From Sulfurospirillum cavolei (lineage in GTDB: Bacteria; Campylobacterota; Campylobacteria; Campylobacterales; Sulfurospirillaceae), in contig NZ_AP014724.1 of NCBI RefSeq assembly GCF_001548055.1, positions 2,604,001 to 2,668,000 on the forward strand: 64,000 bases of DNA, given 5' to 3'. The notes under the pieces are model-generated. The model ran no database searches. It was not told where the DNA came from and saw only the letters and a program-made list of their open reading frames with translations. Position numbers and translations under genes: made by a program. Below, one piece after another: positions 27,785 to 33,319 of the stretch (the stretch's first letter is position 1; each line of letters begins with the position of its first letter).

Positions 27785-28030
27785 ATGAAACGATTTTTCT
27801 CTCTTCTCGCGTTGAGCGTGTCTTTACTCATCGCAAAAGCCGATTTTAGCGAGATGAGCACCGAAGAGCTCATTGCGCTGATCGGTTACGTCGATGCGGA
27901 AAAAGAAGAACCTTTCTACCGTGAACTTGAAAAACGCGTTTCGCAAATGGACGAAGCGCAAAAAACACTTTATGAAAACGACCAATCCCAAAGGCGCAAA
28001 GATGCCCAAAGCCAAACTCCTACTCCTTGA
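27785..28030 (+). CDS. Small secreted DUF1104-family protein
   Basis: 81 residues: signal peptide (MKRFFSLLALSVSLLIAKA), then DFSEMSTEELIALIGYVDAEKEE and an acidic, helical remainder, the layout of DUF1104 proteins found in Campylobacterota. Function unknown. The ATG at 27785 is five bases after the lipoprotein stop; its end overlaps the next regulator gene by 29 bases, so it links the Mla operon to the two-component pair downstream. Confidence 0.75.
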   Translation: MKRFFSLLALSVSLLIAKADFSEMSTEELIALIGYVDAEKEEPFYRELEKRVSQMDEAQKTLYENDQSQRRKDAQSQTPTP

Positions 28031-28676
28031 AGACGATACCAGTCTTAGCGAGACCGTATGCGAATTTTTAGTCTCAAAAGACTACGACGTCATACCGGTT
28101 TACGACGGCAAAGAGGCGGAAGTTGCAATTTACGAAACGCGTTTCGATCTTTTATTGCTCGACGTGAACGTTCCTTTGCTAAACGGTTTTCAGCTCCTCT
28201 CCCAACTTCGCTTGGAAGGTAAAACGACACCGGCTATTTTTCTCACCTCGTTAAATGCGATCGAAGACGTCGAAGAGGGTTATGAAAGCGGTTGCGACGA
28301 TTATCTGCGCAAACCTTTTGCGCTTAAAGAACTCTTGTTTCGCATCGAAACCTTGTTAAAACGTGAATTTTTTCATACGCCTCAAGCACGCTTACGCATC
28401 GATGAACATGTCGAGTACGATACCGCGACGCATCAGCTTTATATCGATCAAAAAATCGTACAGTTGCAAAACAAAGAAGCCAAACTTCTAAAGCTTTTTT
28501 TGCAAAAAAAGAACGAAATTATCAGCCATGAAACATTGATGGAACATTTATGGGATTTTGAGGAAACCGGCAGTGACGAAACCCTTCGTACCTACATTAA
28601 AAACTTACGCAAAATCATAGGGAAAGAGCGCATTGTTAGTCTTAAAAAACTGGGATACAAATTTACGCTCGCGTGA
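28002..28676 (+). CDS. OmpR-family response regulator
   Basis: 224 residues from MPKAKLLLLEDD. Receiver with phospho-acceptor Asp54 (LLLLDVNVPLLNG), Lys in YLRKPF, and a winged helix (HETLMEHLWDFEE ... TYIKNLRKIIG). Earlier in-frame Met codons exist inside the DUF1104 gene but give a tail foreign to the family. It resembles the regulator at 8580-9245 closely enough to look paralogous. The kinase gene begins 44 bases inside its 3' end. Confidence 0.9.
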   Translation: MPKAKLLLLEDDTSLSETVCEFLVSKDYDVIPVYDGKEAEVAIYETRFDLLLLDVNVPLLNGFQLLSQLRLEGKTTPAIFLTSLNAIEDVEEGYESGCDDYLRKPFALKELLFRIETLLKREFFHTPQARLRIDEHVEYDTATHQLYIDQKIVQLQNKEAKLLKLFLQKKNEIISHETLMEHLWDFEETGSDETLRTYIKNLRKIIGKERIVSLKKLGYKFTLA

Positions 28677-29820
28677 GAAAAAGACGCTTTGGTCGTTTCT
28701 TTTTCTCTATGCTTTTTTGGTGCTTATTAGCCTTTTTTTTGTTGCGTTTTTATACTACGACCTCCAACGGGAGCTCTTTTTACAACACCAAAAAGAAGCC
28801 CTTTCCAATCTGACCAACGAACAGATTAACCGTTTAAGAACCTTACATGTTAACTTTGACAAAGAGCGTCTTTATCCACGCGACGAACGGTTTAACTCAG
28901 CCATCTACGACAGCGGTTTGCATGAAATCTTTTCGACTTTACGTTCGCAAAACGTCAATCTTTACGACGATATTTATATCAAAGAGCATAAAATCTACTT
29001 TATCAAAGAGCTAGAGTCTTACTACCTCGGCGCACGTTACATCGCACTGGAAGTACCCGAGCCTGCACATTGGGATAAGAAGATTTACCGCACGCTTTTT
29101 CTCTACGGCGGTATTATTTTTGCCCTTACGGTATTGATCGGTTATTTTTTATTGAAACTCTTATTACGCCCAATGCGAGATGCTATCTCGTTACTGGATC
29201 GTTTCATCAAAGATACGACGCACGAACTCAACACGCCGGTCAATACGATTCTCTCGAATATCGAGATGATCGATCCGAAACAACTCGATCCGTCACTTCT
29301 GAAAAAAATTAACCGTATTACGATCGCATCCAAAACCATTTCAAATTTATACGACGATTTAACCTACTTAATCCTTTCGCACCGTTTATCGTCTCATGAT
29401 GAAACCGTTGATCTTAAACTATTGCTTGAAGAACGACTGGAATACTTCTCTTTGCTCTGCGAATCAAAAAAAATCCGTGTCGGCGCGTGCCTAGAAGCAA
29501 ACGTCGTTATGTCGATCGATCGTAAAAAAATCACGAAATTGCTCGACAATATTCTCTCCAATGCCGTTAAATACAATAACATCGGCGGAACGATTGACGT
29601 CGAGCTCCACGATAAACTGATCCGAATTAGCGATAGCGGACGCGGTATGGACGCATCAAAAACTAAACATGCGTTTGAACGTTACGTTCGATTCGATCGA
29701 AGCGTGGGCGGATTTGGCATCGGACTGAGCATCGTAGCCGCGATCGCTAAGGAGTACGGACTCAGCGTCGATATCGAATCCAAACGCGACGAAGGTACGA
29801 AAGTGAGTATTTCATGGTAA
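28633..29820 (+). CDS. Sensor histidine kinase (TTG start)
   Basis: About 395 residues. Helices at about 19-42 and 157-177 enclose a 115-residue periplasmic sensor; H-box IKDTTHELNTPVNTI with His197, N-box DNILSNAVKYNN and G2 box GFGIGLSIVAAI. No ATG or GTG precedes the first helix in frame; the TTG at 28633 stands five bases behind GGAAAGAG and is the best start. The C-terminus overlaps the start of a small c-type cytochrome gene, suggesting a redox-linked signal, which is inference. Confidence 0.9.
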   Translation: MLVLKNWDTNLRSREKKTLWSFLFLYAFLVLISLFFVAFLYYDLQRELFLQHQKEALSNLTNEQINRLRTLHVNFDKERLYPRDERFNSAIYDSGLHEIFSTLRSQNVNLYDDIYIKEHKIYFIKELESYYLGARYIALEVPEPAHWDKKIYRTLFLYGGIIFALTVLIGYFLLKLLLRPMRDAISLLDRFIKDTTHELNTPVNTILSNIEMIDPKQLDPSLLKKINRITIASKTISNLYDDLTYLILSHRLSSHDETVDLKLLLEERLEYFSLLCESKKIRVGACLEANVVMSIDRKKITKLLDNILSNAVKYNNIGGTIDVELHDKLIRISDSGRGMDASKTKHAFERYVRFDRSVGGFGIGLSIVAAIAKEYGLSVDIESKRDEGTKVSISW

Positions 29821-30149
29821 AAGCAGTCGGTCTCTTTTTCATCTGCGTTGCATGGGCTTTTGGTAGCGAAAGCGTTTATGAGCGTCATTGCGTGCCTTGT
29901 CATAAAGATATGCCGGTCAAAATCGACAAATTTTTTTACCGCTATTTATTAAAATACAGCAGTGAAACCGAAGTCAAACGCGCTATGACGCACTATCTCA
30001 AAAATCCCACCAAAGAGACTTCGATCCTCACCGACGGATTGATTAACCGTTTCGGCGTTAAGAAAAAAACGATGCTCAGCGATGTAGCTTTAAGTGAAGC
30101 TTTAGATACCTATTGGGAAACGTATAAAGTTTTCAATAAATTGAAATAG
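29814..30149 (+). CDS. Small secreted protein with one haem c motif
   Basis: 111 residues: signal peptide (MVKAVGLFFICVAWAFG), CVPCH at 26-30 for covalent haem, then a basic, helical C-terminal part unlike the c553 fold (no clear Met ligand loop). It overlaps the kinase gene by seven bases and so belongs to the same transcript. It could be an electron carrier or a haem-based signal input to that kinase; both are inference. Confidence 0.8.
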   Translation: MVKAVGLFFICVAWAFGSESVYERHCVPCHKDMPVKIDKFFYRYLLKYSSETEVKRAMTHYLKNPTKETSILTDGLINRFGVKKKTMLSDVALSEALDTYWETYKVFNKLK

Positions 30150-30221: not shown

Positions 30222-30518
30222 ATGAAAAAGGTCTTAGTCTTAGCTAGCATTCTATGCGCTACCTCAATTTTTGCCGCTGATGGGGCAACACTTTATAAAA
30301 CCTGTGCTACATGTCACGGTGCAAAAGCGGAGAAAGCCGCTTTGAATAAATCTCAGATTATTGCCGGATGGAGTGCCGATAAAATTACTGCTGCGCTCAA
30401 CGGTTATAAAGCAGGTACTTACGGCGGTCCTTTGAAAGCAACGATGGTAGGACAAGTTAAAAATCTTGACGCCGACGCAATCGCTGCACTATCCAAATAC
30501 ATCGAAGGTCTTAAATAA
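30222..30518 (+). CDS. Periplasmic cytochrome c553
   Basis: 98 residues: signal peptide (ends IFAADG), haem motif CATCHG at 28-33, likely axial Met75 in KATMVGQVKNL and a final helix AIAALSKYIEGL. Strong ribosome-binding site AAGGAG. A typical Campylobacterota c553, a soluble carrier between the bc1 complex and terminal reductases. It is convergent with the CydA-like operon, whose first subunit carries its own haem c, so an electron-transfer partnership is plausible. Confidence 0.92.
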   Translation: MKKVLVLASILCATSIFAADGATLYKTCATCHGAKAEKAALNKSQIIAGWSADKITAALNGYKAGTYGGPLKATMVGQVKNLDADAIAALSKYIEGLK

Positions 30519-30608: not shown

Positions 30609-31802
30609 TTAGAGAATATTTTTAAACAAAGTTGTAATTCCCCAAGCAAAATAGATAGCCATCCACGCAATCATAATATAAAGCGTTGCTTGACCCAATT
30701 TCGTGACCACGACATCTTTAGAGCCGTCAAAAACGCCTTCGCGTTTACCGACTTTCCATGCCATCGTTAAAAGATACGCCACGCCGACAAATCCCATAAT
30801 CAAGAATGTCGATAAGAACATAACGATAGAAGGAATTTCCAAATTCATCGGATAGTCGTAAATGCTGTATCCTAAAGCCGACATAATGTCAAAACGAATC
30901 AATTCTCTCATGGTGGAGATCAACAGTGCTACGACGACTAAAACCAAGGTCGTATAGTAGCTATTGCGATTCGTTTTTGCCATAGCAAGCAAAACCAATA
31001 CGCCGATAATCGTCGCGATCGATACGGGATGAAAAAGGTATTTGATTTGCAACATCCACAAAACGAACAAGACCGCACTGATCAAAAGCCCTACAACCGC
31101 AAAATTGGTTCCTAGTTTTGCGCTGTAGCTGATAAACGAAGCGTCAAAATCTTTTCGTGTCGACAAAAAGCGGCTGTAGTTTTGCAAGAAAATACCTACG
31201 ACGGGAATAGCTAAGCTTACCATAAACGCCAATCGGATAATGTCCATATTAAACGTCCATCCGCTCGTATTGACGATACCGTTAGGTGCGTACATGTTCA
31301 TCCAATCGTGCGGCATAATCGACGTAACCGCAAAACTGTGCATCAAAATTCCGGCAAATACCAAGATACCGAACGATACGAAACCGATCAACGAATGTCC
31401 CGTTCGTTGCGCTTTGTGCGCATAATAGTACCAATAGTACATACAATAACCGACGATCATCGTATACACGAAGATAAAAATCCACATACCCGATAACGTA
31501 TTGGTGACATACCAGTTCGGATCATAGATAACTTGCGTAAAAAGAAGCGGTGCTACACCTAAAACGATCAAGATAGAGACACTGATCTTACCCGTTTGAA
31601 TCAAATGCGGCGTAAGGATACTCCAATGTTTGTCCTGATTTCCTTTTGCCGAACCGTAAAGCGACAGACCCATAGCACCCAATGAAAGCAGTACGAATGC
31701 CGCATGCAACGCCCACGTTAAAATATAAAGTATTTGAAAAACTATGGGATAAAATGGAACTCCCGCGGGATCCCTAAGCGCTAATAATACTGATGCGTCC
31801 AT
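30609..31802 (-). CDS. Cytochrome bd-superfamily-like membrane subunit II (CydA-like rather than CydB-like)
   Basis: 397 residues, about nine membrane helices. It follows the subunit I gene by nine bases. It is not a normal CydB by eye; segment by segment it parallels subunit I (ILTWALHAAFVLLSLGAMGL with GITGTIHILFSHTSVGAAML; SVSILIVLGVAPLLFTQVIY with LLIFSYVLGSITGPGIWNT; IIRLAFMVSLAIPVVGIFL with MFLRIGFMIMMSGVIGLVI). It may thus be a second CydA-family subunit. An inner-membrane redox role is inferred from its partner. Nitrogen-oxide, oxygen or quinone chemistry cannot be decided. Confidence 0.7.
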   Translation of the reverse strand: MDASVLLALRDPAGVPFYPIVFQILYILTWALHAAFVLLSLGAMGLSLYGSAKGNQDKHWSILTPHLIQTGKISVSILIVLGVAPLLFTQVIYDPNWYVTNTLSGMWIFIFVYTMIVGYCMYYWYYYAHKAQRTGHSLIGFVSFGILVFAGILMHSFAVTSIMPHDWMNMYAPNGIVNTSGWTFNMDIIRLAFMVSLAIPVVGIFLQNYSRFLSTRKDFDASFISYSAKLGTNFAVVGLLISAVLFVLWMLQIKYLFHPVSIATIIGVLVLLAMAKTNRNSYYTTLVLVVVALLISTMRELIRFDIMSALGYSIYDYPMNLEIPSIVMFLSTFLIMGFVGVAYLLTMAWKVGKREGVFDGSKDVVVTKLGQATLYIMIAWMAIYFAWGITTLFKNIL

Positions 31803-31811
31803 TATTTCTCC

Positions 31812-33149
31812 TTAGTAGTGTAACGATGCAAAATATTCCGCGATCGCATCGTATTCTGTTTCTGGTAATTTAAGTGTCGGCATATAGCTCATACCACCTT
31901 CTCCGATGACATATAGAATGGATTTAATTCCCTCTTTGTCCATACCGGTCAATCGATCTTTCAATGGTCTAAATACGCCTGTTTTTTCCAAAGAGTGGCA
32001 ATTAGAACATGCCATTTTGGCTAAAAGTTCACCGGCTTCTCGCTTGTTTTCATCGGTAATCGTTTTAAGACGAGCAGGGACGAAAGGATTGAGATGTAAA
32101 AGTCCTTTCTCGGCAATAATCGGAAGCTCGCTTTTGATGTTTTTACCGGGAACGTCTCGGCTGATAATTTGATTGGAATAGATGTATTGTCCAGCAACGT
32201 AAGGCTTACGCATGGACTCTCTTAGCTTCTCTCCAGACCATAAACCGGAAATCAAAATAACACCGATCATCACGCTTGCAATAACGGGATTGATCAATTT
32301 TGGCTTAATAATCGCAATGGCAAAGTAAGCGATAAATACCATCGTCAAGATAATTCTATTTTGAATAATGGCGTCTTTTGAGAAAGCAAAAACCGCATGA
32401 GCGTTTTCGGGAAGCGTACCCATATACCAAACAAAGAAAAACATGGTTATGAAGCCGCCGATAATGCTGATATAACCCATCTTTCGGCTGAGCTCGTTGG
32501 AGAGTTCTTCATTTTCTTTGCGCATCGAACTGGAAATAACCAAACCGATAACGCCCGACATCATAATCATGAAGCCTATACGTAAGAACATATGCGGGAA
32601 CGTATTGATACCGAAGAATGCATCGCTTGCGCTTCCCGTTGCATAGAAGGCTTGCGTTCCGGGCCACATCATAAAACTGATAATACCGATGATAAGCGCC
32701 AAAGTTCCGACCGAAGCTAGCGCAAACGTATAGGTAAGTTTGAGGTGTGTTTTTCGATCTATTCTATCGATAAAGTAGACCAGCACGAAAACACCGATGA
32801 CTTCATAGATAAAAAAGACCCATTCCGTTGCCCATACCCATACGAAGTTATGAATAAGCGCACTAATACCTCTCGGGCTTGCCGCCGTTGCGGTATTCCA
32901 AATACCAGGTCCCGTGATGGAACCTAAAACATACGAGAAAATCAGCAAAAACATACCGTATTTTTTCATATACGGATAATAATCGCTTCGATTCTCTTTG
33001 TACGCTTTGTGCGCTAAAAAGGCAAAAAGCATCGCCGCACCGACCGACGTATGCGAGAATAAGATGTGTATCGTACCCGTTATACCCATCATCCAAGCAC
33101 TTCCATATTCAGGAAAATAAAACAACGGGAATTGCCCTATTATATCCAT
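31812..33149 (-). CDS. Cytochrome bd-superfamily subunit I (CydA-like) with fused C-terminal cytochrome c domain
   Basis: About 445 residues. N-terminal membrane part of 8-9 helices with CydA-like GTIHILFSHTSVGAAMLFAF (candidate haem His) and WATEWVFFIYEVIGVFVLVY. After the last helix, about 120 periplasmic residues end in a cytochrome c fold: CSNCH at 381-385 and candidate Met ligand in GGMSYMPTLK. Cytochrome bd-superfamily subunits with a haem c tail are known, but quinol-oxidising loop features are not evident here. The Met at 33149 behind AAGGAG is preferred to an upstream in-frame Met. First gene of a two-gene operon. Confidence 0.75.
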   Translation of the reverse strand: MDIIGQFPLFYFPEYGSAWMMGITGTIHILFSHTSVGAAMLFAFLAHKAYKENRSDYYPYMKKYGMFLLIFSYVLGSITGPGIWNTATAASPRGISALIHNFVWVWATEWVFFIYEVIGVFVLVYFIDRIDRKTHLKLTYTFALASVGTLALIIGIISFMMWPGTQAFYATGSASDAFFGINTFPHMFLRIGFMIMMSGVIGLVISSSMRKENEELSNELSRKMGYISIIGGFITMFFFVWYMGTLPENAHAVFAFSKDAIIQNRIILTMVFIAYFAIAIIKPKLINPVIASVMIGVILISGLWSGEKLRESMRKPYVAGQYIYSNQIISRDVPGKNIKSELPIIAEKGLLHLNPFVPARLKTITDENKREAGELLAKMACSNCHSLEKTGVFRPLKDRLTGMDKEGIKSILYVIGEGGMSYMPTLKLPETEYDAIAEYFASLHY

Positions 33150-33319
33150 GAAGTCTCCTTTGTGTAAAATTTTTAACAACTAGGATTATAGAAGCACCGT
33201 GTTAAATAAGTGTTAATTTTAATTTTTTTTAATTTTTTATATCAATAATGAAACAGAATATTTTCTTAAAGAATCATTTTTGGAAGCTTACATGTGAAGA
33301 ACTCTCGAGAAAGAAGAAG

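Follow-up and report, generated by a model that had tools for sequence, protein, structure and literature searches.

A bd-superfamily subunit pair with a fused haem c in Sulfurospirillum cavolei and its possible place in the response to copper limitation

The genome of Sulfurospirillum cavolei (2.70 Mb, one contig) contains two adjacent genes that raise the question of what a membrane complex made of two CydA-type subunits, one of them carrying a cytochrome c domain, would do in a bacterium equipped with other terminal oxidases. The genes lie in a window of 64,000 nucleotides (positions 2,604,001 to 2,668,000 of contig NZ_AP014724.1), in which all positions given below without a contig or locus label are counted. 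Subunit I (S1; 31812-33149, minus strand) has 445 amino acids and eight transmembrane (TM) helices, with a CydA-type membrane domain followed by a C-terminal haem c domain; its reading frame begins with ATG, preceded by AAGGAG. Subunit II (S2; 30609-31802, minus strand) follows after 9 bases and is a CydA-type membrane subunit of 397 amino acids, lacking haem c and the glutamates of TM3. Each gene is single-copy in the whole genome, and the S1 of Sulfurospirillum sp. UBA4058 (a MAG label) is 98% identical to that of S. cavolei. Canonical cydAB is also encoded by the S. cavolei genome (C1:661092-663670), as is an oxidase subunit at C1:452215 that we take, from what is known of Campylobacterota, to be of the copper-dependent cbb3 type, the enzyme for which S1-S2 could substitute. 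A second weak PF01654 match in the genome (C1:75279) turned out to be a transporter-like protein.

The two subunits

A preliminary description of the locus read subunit I as CydA-like helices with a C-terminal CSNCH haem c domain, and this is borne out by Pfam: residues 19-238 match Cyt_bd_oxida_I with an E value of 9.8e-6, slightly below the curated cut-off, and residues 371-439 match Cytochrome_CBB3. The haem c domain extends over about residues 366-445 (31815-32054, minus strand), with CSNCH at residues 381-385 (31995-32009). All 36 members of a diverse S1 alignment match Cyt_bd_oxida_I (PF01654), the best at 5.9e-11. The fold of S1 resembles that of CydA (Z 20-23), and since the structural model is poor (pLDDT 60) the assignment of ligands in S1 rests on sequence motifs.

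Subunit II had been described as a second CydA-like copy in the place of CydB, a reading that has held up. Searches of Pfam, NCBIfam and PDB yielded no convincing hit, either with the S2 sequence or with a profile of 36 members, and no match to PF02322 (CydB) was found in S2; among sequence comparisons it was matched by the S1 profile only (profile against profile, E 1.3e-5, probability 81%). The AlphaFold model of S2 (pLDDT 77) has CydA chains as its best structural matches (Z 23-26, about 330 residues aligned at 3.8-4.3 A), compared with Z 20.8 for the sole CydB chain listed and Z 15-17.5 for the NrfD-like subunits of alternative complex III and polysulfide reductase. The list holds one chain per entry, so that CydB appears in it only once, and the lead of CydA over CydB is for that reason modest. 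The fold match and the profile match together identify S2 as a CydA-type paralogue standing where CydB would be. A better match of S2 to CydB and a loss of haem ligands from both subunits were looked for, and neither was found, so that a bd-superfamily heterodimer of one haem c-fused and one CydA-like subunit is supported as a prediction from sequence and models.

Residue conservation was assessed in 54 sequences of each subunit. In S1 H28, E109, E116, E311 and R314 are invariant (54/54), as are C381, C384 and H385 of the haem c motif, and M423, the probable sixth ligand of haem c, is kept in 49 of the 54. H28 and E311-x-x-R314-K-P would correspond to His19 and E445-x-x-R448-Q-P of E. coli CydA and the TM3 glutamates E109 and E116 to E. 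coli E99 and E107, equivalences that we presume from motif alignment and general knowledge of the family rather than from an S1 structure. The TM8 motif E-x-x-R-[KQ]-P-[WYF] is present in nearly all S1 and in 18/18 CydA of the class, with a chance occurrence of 0.0003 per shuffled sequence. H100, which is extra relative to canonical CydA, is invariant in the 54 sequences, and H186, at the position of the b558 ligand histidine, is not conserved outside Campylobacterota. Conserved in S2 are H33 (TM1), K72, H155 (TM4), R190 and R299-E300-x-x-R303. A TM1 histidine and a TM8 Glu-x-x-Arg are kept in both subunits; the TM3 glutamates of the O2 site are confined to S1, and S2 probably has no second O2 site because it lacks them. 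TM6 and TM7 are separated by about 20 residues in S1 and by about 3 in S2, compared with about 140 in the genome's own CydA, the quinol Q-loop being missing from both. Quinol, originally named beside cytochrome c as a potential substrate, is therefore unlikely to be one, and a cytochrome c becomes the likely donor, given the missing Q-loop and the periplasmic haem c.

A number of bd-superfamily systems resemble the pair in part. Canonical CydAB (qOR) shares with S1 the CydA fold and residues of the H19/E99/E107/E445 type, and reduces O2 without copper, as is proposed for S1-S2, but S1 differs from canonical CydA in the absence of the Q-loop and of a conserved H186 and in the added haem c, and in S1-S2 a CydA paralogue stands in for CydB. 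The archaeal CydAA' of Caldivirga is likewise an enzyme of two CydA paralogues, without the haem c of S1, and was reportedly found by Murali in 2021 to be active with quinol. In the OR-C family, as it is said to have been described by Murali, Gennis and Hemp in 2021, CydA carries a haem c domain and paired paralogues are included. OR-C is a non-quinol family, S1 similarly has no quinol site and has a C-terminal haem c, and by these two features S1-S2 fits OR-C. The family names qOR, OR-C and OR-N are given in PMC13189123, OR-C also in PMC10839748 and PMC11707229, the last of which used HMM profiles for these families. In the literature searched we found no experimentally characterised member of OR-C or enzyme of the S1-S2 type, and for OR-C no copper link such as that seen here for S1-S2. 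The uncharacterised OR-N CydAA' of Nitrospinota and Nitrospirales, for which cytochrome c is the proposed donor (PMC10839748, PMC12342949), also has two CydA-type subunits and no quinol site, but its hosts and neighbours differ from those of S1-S2 and no fused haem c is mentioned for it; the example from Nitrospina has 14 TM helices (PMC3578206). NrfD-like subunits have a helix arrangement distantly similar to both S1 and S2 (Z 12-17.5 overall), lack haem ligands and match less well than CydA.

Distribution and genomic surroundings

Within the class the pair is found in 21 of 249 genomes and 13 of 56 genera, always adjacent, and 20 S1 homologues show 63-92% identity. A scan of species genomes gave S1 identities of 63-98% in Campylobacterota, 46-52% in Alpha-, Beta- and Gammaproteobacteria, 51% in Methylacidiphilaceae and 44% in Thermocrinis, and with the same pair present in several other phyla the novelty of the arrangement can no longer be tied to Campylobacterota, as the preliminary description had it. 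Wherever the sequence was long enough to tell, in 80 loci of Campylobacterota, Pseudomonadota, Methylacidiphilaceae and Thermocrinis, S2 comes directly after S1. Plasmid-borne copies occur in Thermus, Methylosinus and Agrobacterium, where they are annotated as 'cytochrome c' and 'hypothetical protein' or, in Agrobacterium, as 'c-type cytochrome' and 'cytochrome C'. The distribution is patchy, since only 7 of 300 Burkholderiales genomes carry the pair, and many of its hosts are sulfur oxidisers or come from sulfidic places. It is from the constant adjacency of the two CydA-type paralogues that a complex is predicted; the distance matrices of S1 and S2 correlate at 0.92-0.97 within clades (0/2000 permutations as good), which simply agrees with a complex, because linked genes share a history.

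Convergent with S2 lies a gene for a c553-like class I cytochrome c (30222-30518, plus strand; Cytochrom_C E 3e-9), next to genes for an OmpR-type response regulator, a histidine kinase and a 111-aa haem c protein (27894-30149, plus strand), whose link to the complex is one of position. The preliminary description listed the c553, haem c and kinase genes correctly, but the implied partnership did not survive comparison with relatives: the whole block occupies the same place, between an mla-type operon and a malate-synthase-like gene, in two Sulfurospirillum genomes without S1-S2, and in three genomes that have S1-S2 elsewhere the kinase block stands without the pair beside it. The block was accordingly rejected as part of the S1-S2 system and the c553 is no dedicated partner, although it may donate electrons to the pair. 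S1-S2 adjoins the block in both orientations, and its location may be just a favoured insertion site. In Sulfurospirillum diekertiae an S1-S2 pair (65% identical) adjoins the same c553 gene in the opposite orientation, an arrangement that would fit either inversion or replacement at such a site. The 111-aa protein (CVPCH; 29814-30149), which has no Pfam family and whose start overlaps the end of the kinase gene, is conserved together with the kinase in Sulfurospirillum and in some further Campylobacterota, including genomes that lack S1-S2, and might serve the kinase as a haem c accessory sensor. Apart from scattered response regulators no conserved neighbour gene was found in the Campylobacterota loci, where the pair usually stands alone.

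Around 31 loci outside Campylobacterota the commonest neighbour families are c-type cytochromes, with the copper chaperone PCuAC in second place. About 25 Pseudomonadota loci have a gene for a c-type cytochrome within about 200 bases after S2 on the same strand. The 27 genomes searched for PCuAC contain 34 such genes in 113 Mb, and in 4 of the 27 one lies within about 4 kb of S1-S2 where 0.10 would be expected (P 4e-6). On two Bordetella MAG contigs S1 is immediately preceded by a PCuAC-type gene of the same strand, and in Achromobacter the order TonB receptor-PCuAC-S1-S2-cytochrome c runs along one strand; PCuAC beside the Thiomicrorhabdus pair was suspected and not confirmed on search. Methanobactin is a copper chelator, and in Methylosinus sp. 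C49 the methanobactin gene mbnF lies a few genes from the pair, in the order feoB ... S1-S2-cytochrome c-kinase-response regulator ... mbnF. The neighbours in Thiomicrorhabdus and Thermus (COG0523-type GTPases, a metal ABC binding protein and a Fur-like protein) look as if they point to zinc or to metals generally, not to copper. Genes for MarR/GbsR-type regulators, a type that controls the canonical cytochrome bd of Alishewanella, occur near S1 in three betaproteobacterial loci.

A promoter repeat shared with probable copper uptake genes

Upstream of S1 the -35 region contains TTAACACTTATTTAACA (33200-33216, minus strand), an 11-bp phased direct repeat, followed by TATAAT (33185-33190, minus strand), the probable -10 of the S1-S2 promoter. 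Both elements are conserved ahead of S1 in relatives, and the upstream alignment of close relatives has a conserved TTAACAC-TTAT-TTAACAC with TATAAT nine bases on. With one mismatch allowed, the repeat TTAACA-N5-TTAACA has a single match in the window against 0.06 expected. TTAAC half-sites 11 bp apart are typical of OmpR/PhoB-type regulators, and TTAACACTTATTTAACA is, by its sequence, the probable operator of an OmpR-type response regulator.

Two perfect sites exist in the whole genome, one before S1 and one 44 bases before a gene for a TonB-dependent receptor. The receptor operon (C1:2452588-2458100; L181:5089-10561) encodes the TonB receptor, a polyferredoxin-NosL fusion, ExbB, ExbD and TonB, the NosL domain of the fusion being recognised at E 4e-18. 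NosL takes part as a copper protein in the assembly of N2O reductase, and the operon is likely to be a copper uptake system of Campylobacterota; the receptor of the S. cavolei genome itself gave no match to the copper-receptor model, and its copper role is read from the adjoining NosL domain. In 12 genomes the motif has 17 sites, compared with 0 for a reversed control, of which 7 lie before S1, 6 before TonB-receptor, NosL or ExbB genes and 4 have no copper gene downstream. The group of six comprises TonB receptors in S. cavolei and in genomes G203, G134 and G139, an ExbB-ExbD-TonB set in G122 and a NosL protein in G239. For the receptors of G203 and G134, which are partial sequences, the best-scoring model is that of the TonB-dependent copper receptor, at 131 and 130 bits, short of its full-length cut-off. 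TonB receptors make up about 0.3% of genes (85 in the 12 genomes), so that finding them at 4 of the 10 sites that do not precede S1 greatly exceeds chance (0.03 expected, P about 2e-8, for related genomes in which the sites are not independent). The operator precedes S1 in only about half of the Campylobacterota loci.

Sites of the same kind were also seen elsewhere. In two genera the operator, with a -10-like element, is directed at the 3' end of the gene for the response regulator beside S2 (L185, G122 C1:488577; L198, G203 C17:140137); no ORF lies behind it, and it may belong to a small RNA or an antisense transcript. In G122 a response regulator, a kinase, the operator and ExbB-ExbD-TonB follow in sequence (L218:4947-7969), which makes this response regulator a candidate to act on the operator. 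In G239 (L047:8722-10587) a TonB-dependent receptor gene begins about 180 bases after S2 on the same strand, followed by genes for YfiR-like and GGDEF proteins.

Proposed function and its alternatives

The reading that we favour, by a modest degree of belief, is that S1-S2 is a haem-only cytochrome c:O2 oxidoreductase of the bd superfamily that is used under copper limitation. A soluble class I cytochrome c would pass electrons in the periplasm to the haem c domain of S1 and from there to two active-site haems, of presumed identity, in the TM bundle of S1 (ligands H28 and E311), where O2 would be reduced to water, with E109 and E116 as the glutamates of the proton path. S2 would replace CydB in a heterodimer with S1 and might itself bind one or two haems (H33, H155, E300), either structural or relaying electrons. 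The pair would be made when copper is too scarce for assembly of the cbb3 oxidase, since S1-S2 itself needs no copper, and a single response-regulator-type operator would serve both S1-S2 and the copper uptake genes (TonB receptor, NosL, ExbBD-TonB). There is a parallel in Bordetella pertussis, where canonical CydAB is essential under copper limitation (PMC12914433). Because canonical cydAB, also copper-free, is already present in the S. cavolei genome, a second backup oxidase needs a reason, which is perhaps its coupling to the cytochrome c pool and the bc complex; it would differ from canonical CydAB in its donor, cytochrome c keeping the bc complex in the chain.

The same cytochrome c-fed oxidase might instead protect respiration against sulfide, NO or cyanide, which we hold to be unlikely. 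Heme-copper oxidases, as the common target of such agents, would then account for the nearby copper genes, the hosts are often sulfur oxidisers or from sulfidic places, and some Pseudomonadota loci have MarR/GbsR-type regulators adjoining S1, a type which, according to PMC6096048 and PMC11837568, controls canonical cytochrome bd in resistance to sulfide, metals, NO and cyanide; the shared operator, however, marks metal uptake genes and not stress genes, and methanobactin and PCuAC genes are among the neighbours. It is also conceivable, at a small probability, that the operator senses copper excess or another envelope signal and that the oxidase guards respiration during copper or metal stress. 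Response regulators adjoin the pair in many loci and OmpR-type regulators often sense metal excess, but the genes sharing the operator (TonB receptor, ExbBD, TonB, NosL) are uptake genes, for which reason lack rather than excess is the expected signal.

Two further alternatives would change the reaction itself. That S1-S2 reduces NO, or a nitrogen or sulfur oxide, with cytochrome c electrons is quite improbable: a connection with nitrite oxidation has been drawn for bd-like proteins of unknown function in Nitrospina and Nitrospira (PMC3578206), and the ligand set departs from that of canonical CydA in the unconserved H186 and the extra invariant H100, but S1 keeps all of the O2-site ligands and proton-path glutamates (the H19, E99, E107 and E445 equivalents), and genes of nitrogen or sulfur reduction are not enriched among its neighbours. 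Least probable of all is a quinol-cytochrome c reductase in the manner of alternative complex III, in which electrons would move between quinone and the membrane pair and between the haem c and soluble cytochrome c. A similar role has been proposed for the Nitrospina bd-like proteins (PMC3578206), and both folds do recall the quinone-binding NrfD/ActC-type subunits (Z 12-17.5); against this, the match to the CydA fold is clearly better, the O2-site residues are conserved, the Q-loop is absent and the operon contains no iron-sulfur partner subunit.

The pair itself fits the uncharacterised OR-C family, and what is new in this analysis is the promoter repeat and the link with copper; this link with a copper regulon did not appear in the literature searched. 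The broader proposition, that S1-S2 is a widespread, dedicated copper-sparing replacement for cbb3 or aa3 oxidases at the level of cytochrome c, and that in Campylobacterota it forms part of a copper-limitation regulon marked by TTAACA-N5-TTAACA and shared with TonB-NosL uptake, stands in our judgement at an even balance. To our knowledge, all cytochrome c oxidases of demonstrated activity are copper enzymes. Were the proposition true, the energy-conserving step at the bc complex, which is bypassed by the quinol-oxidising CydAB, would be retained without copper, a family labelled 'cytochrome c' and 'hypothetical protein' in databases would acquire a function together with a regulator-type site and an inducing condition that can be tested, and copper limitation would suggest itself as a force behind the patchy spread of S1-S2.
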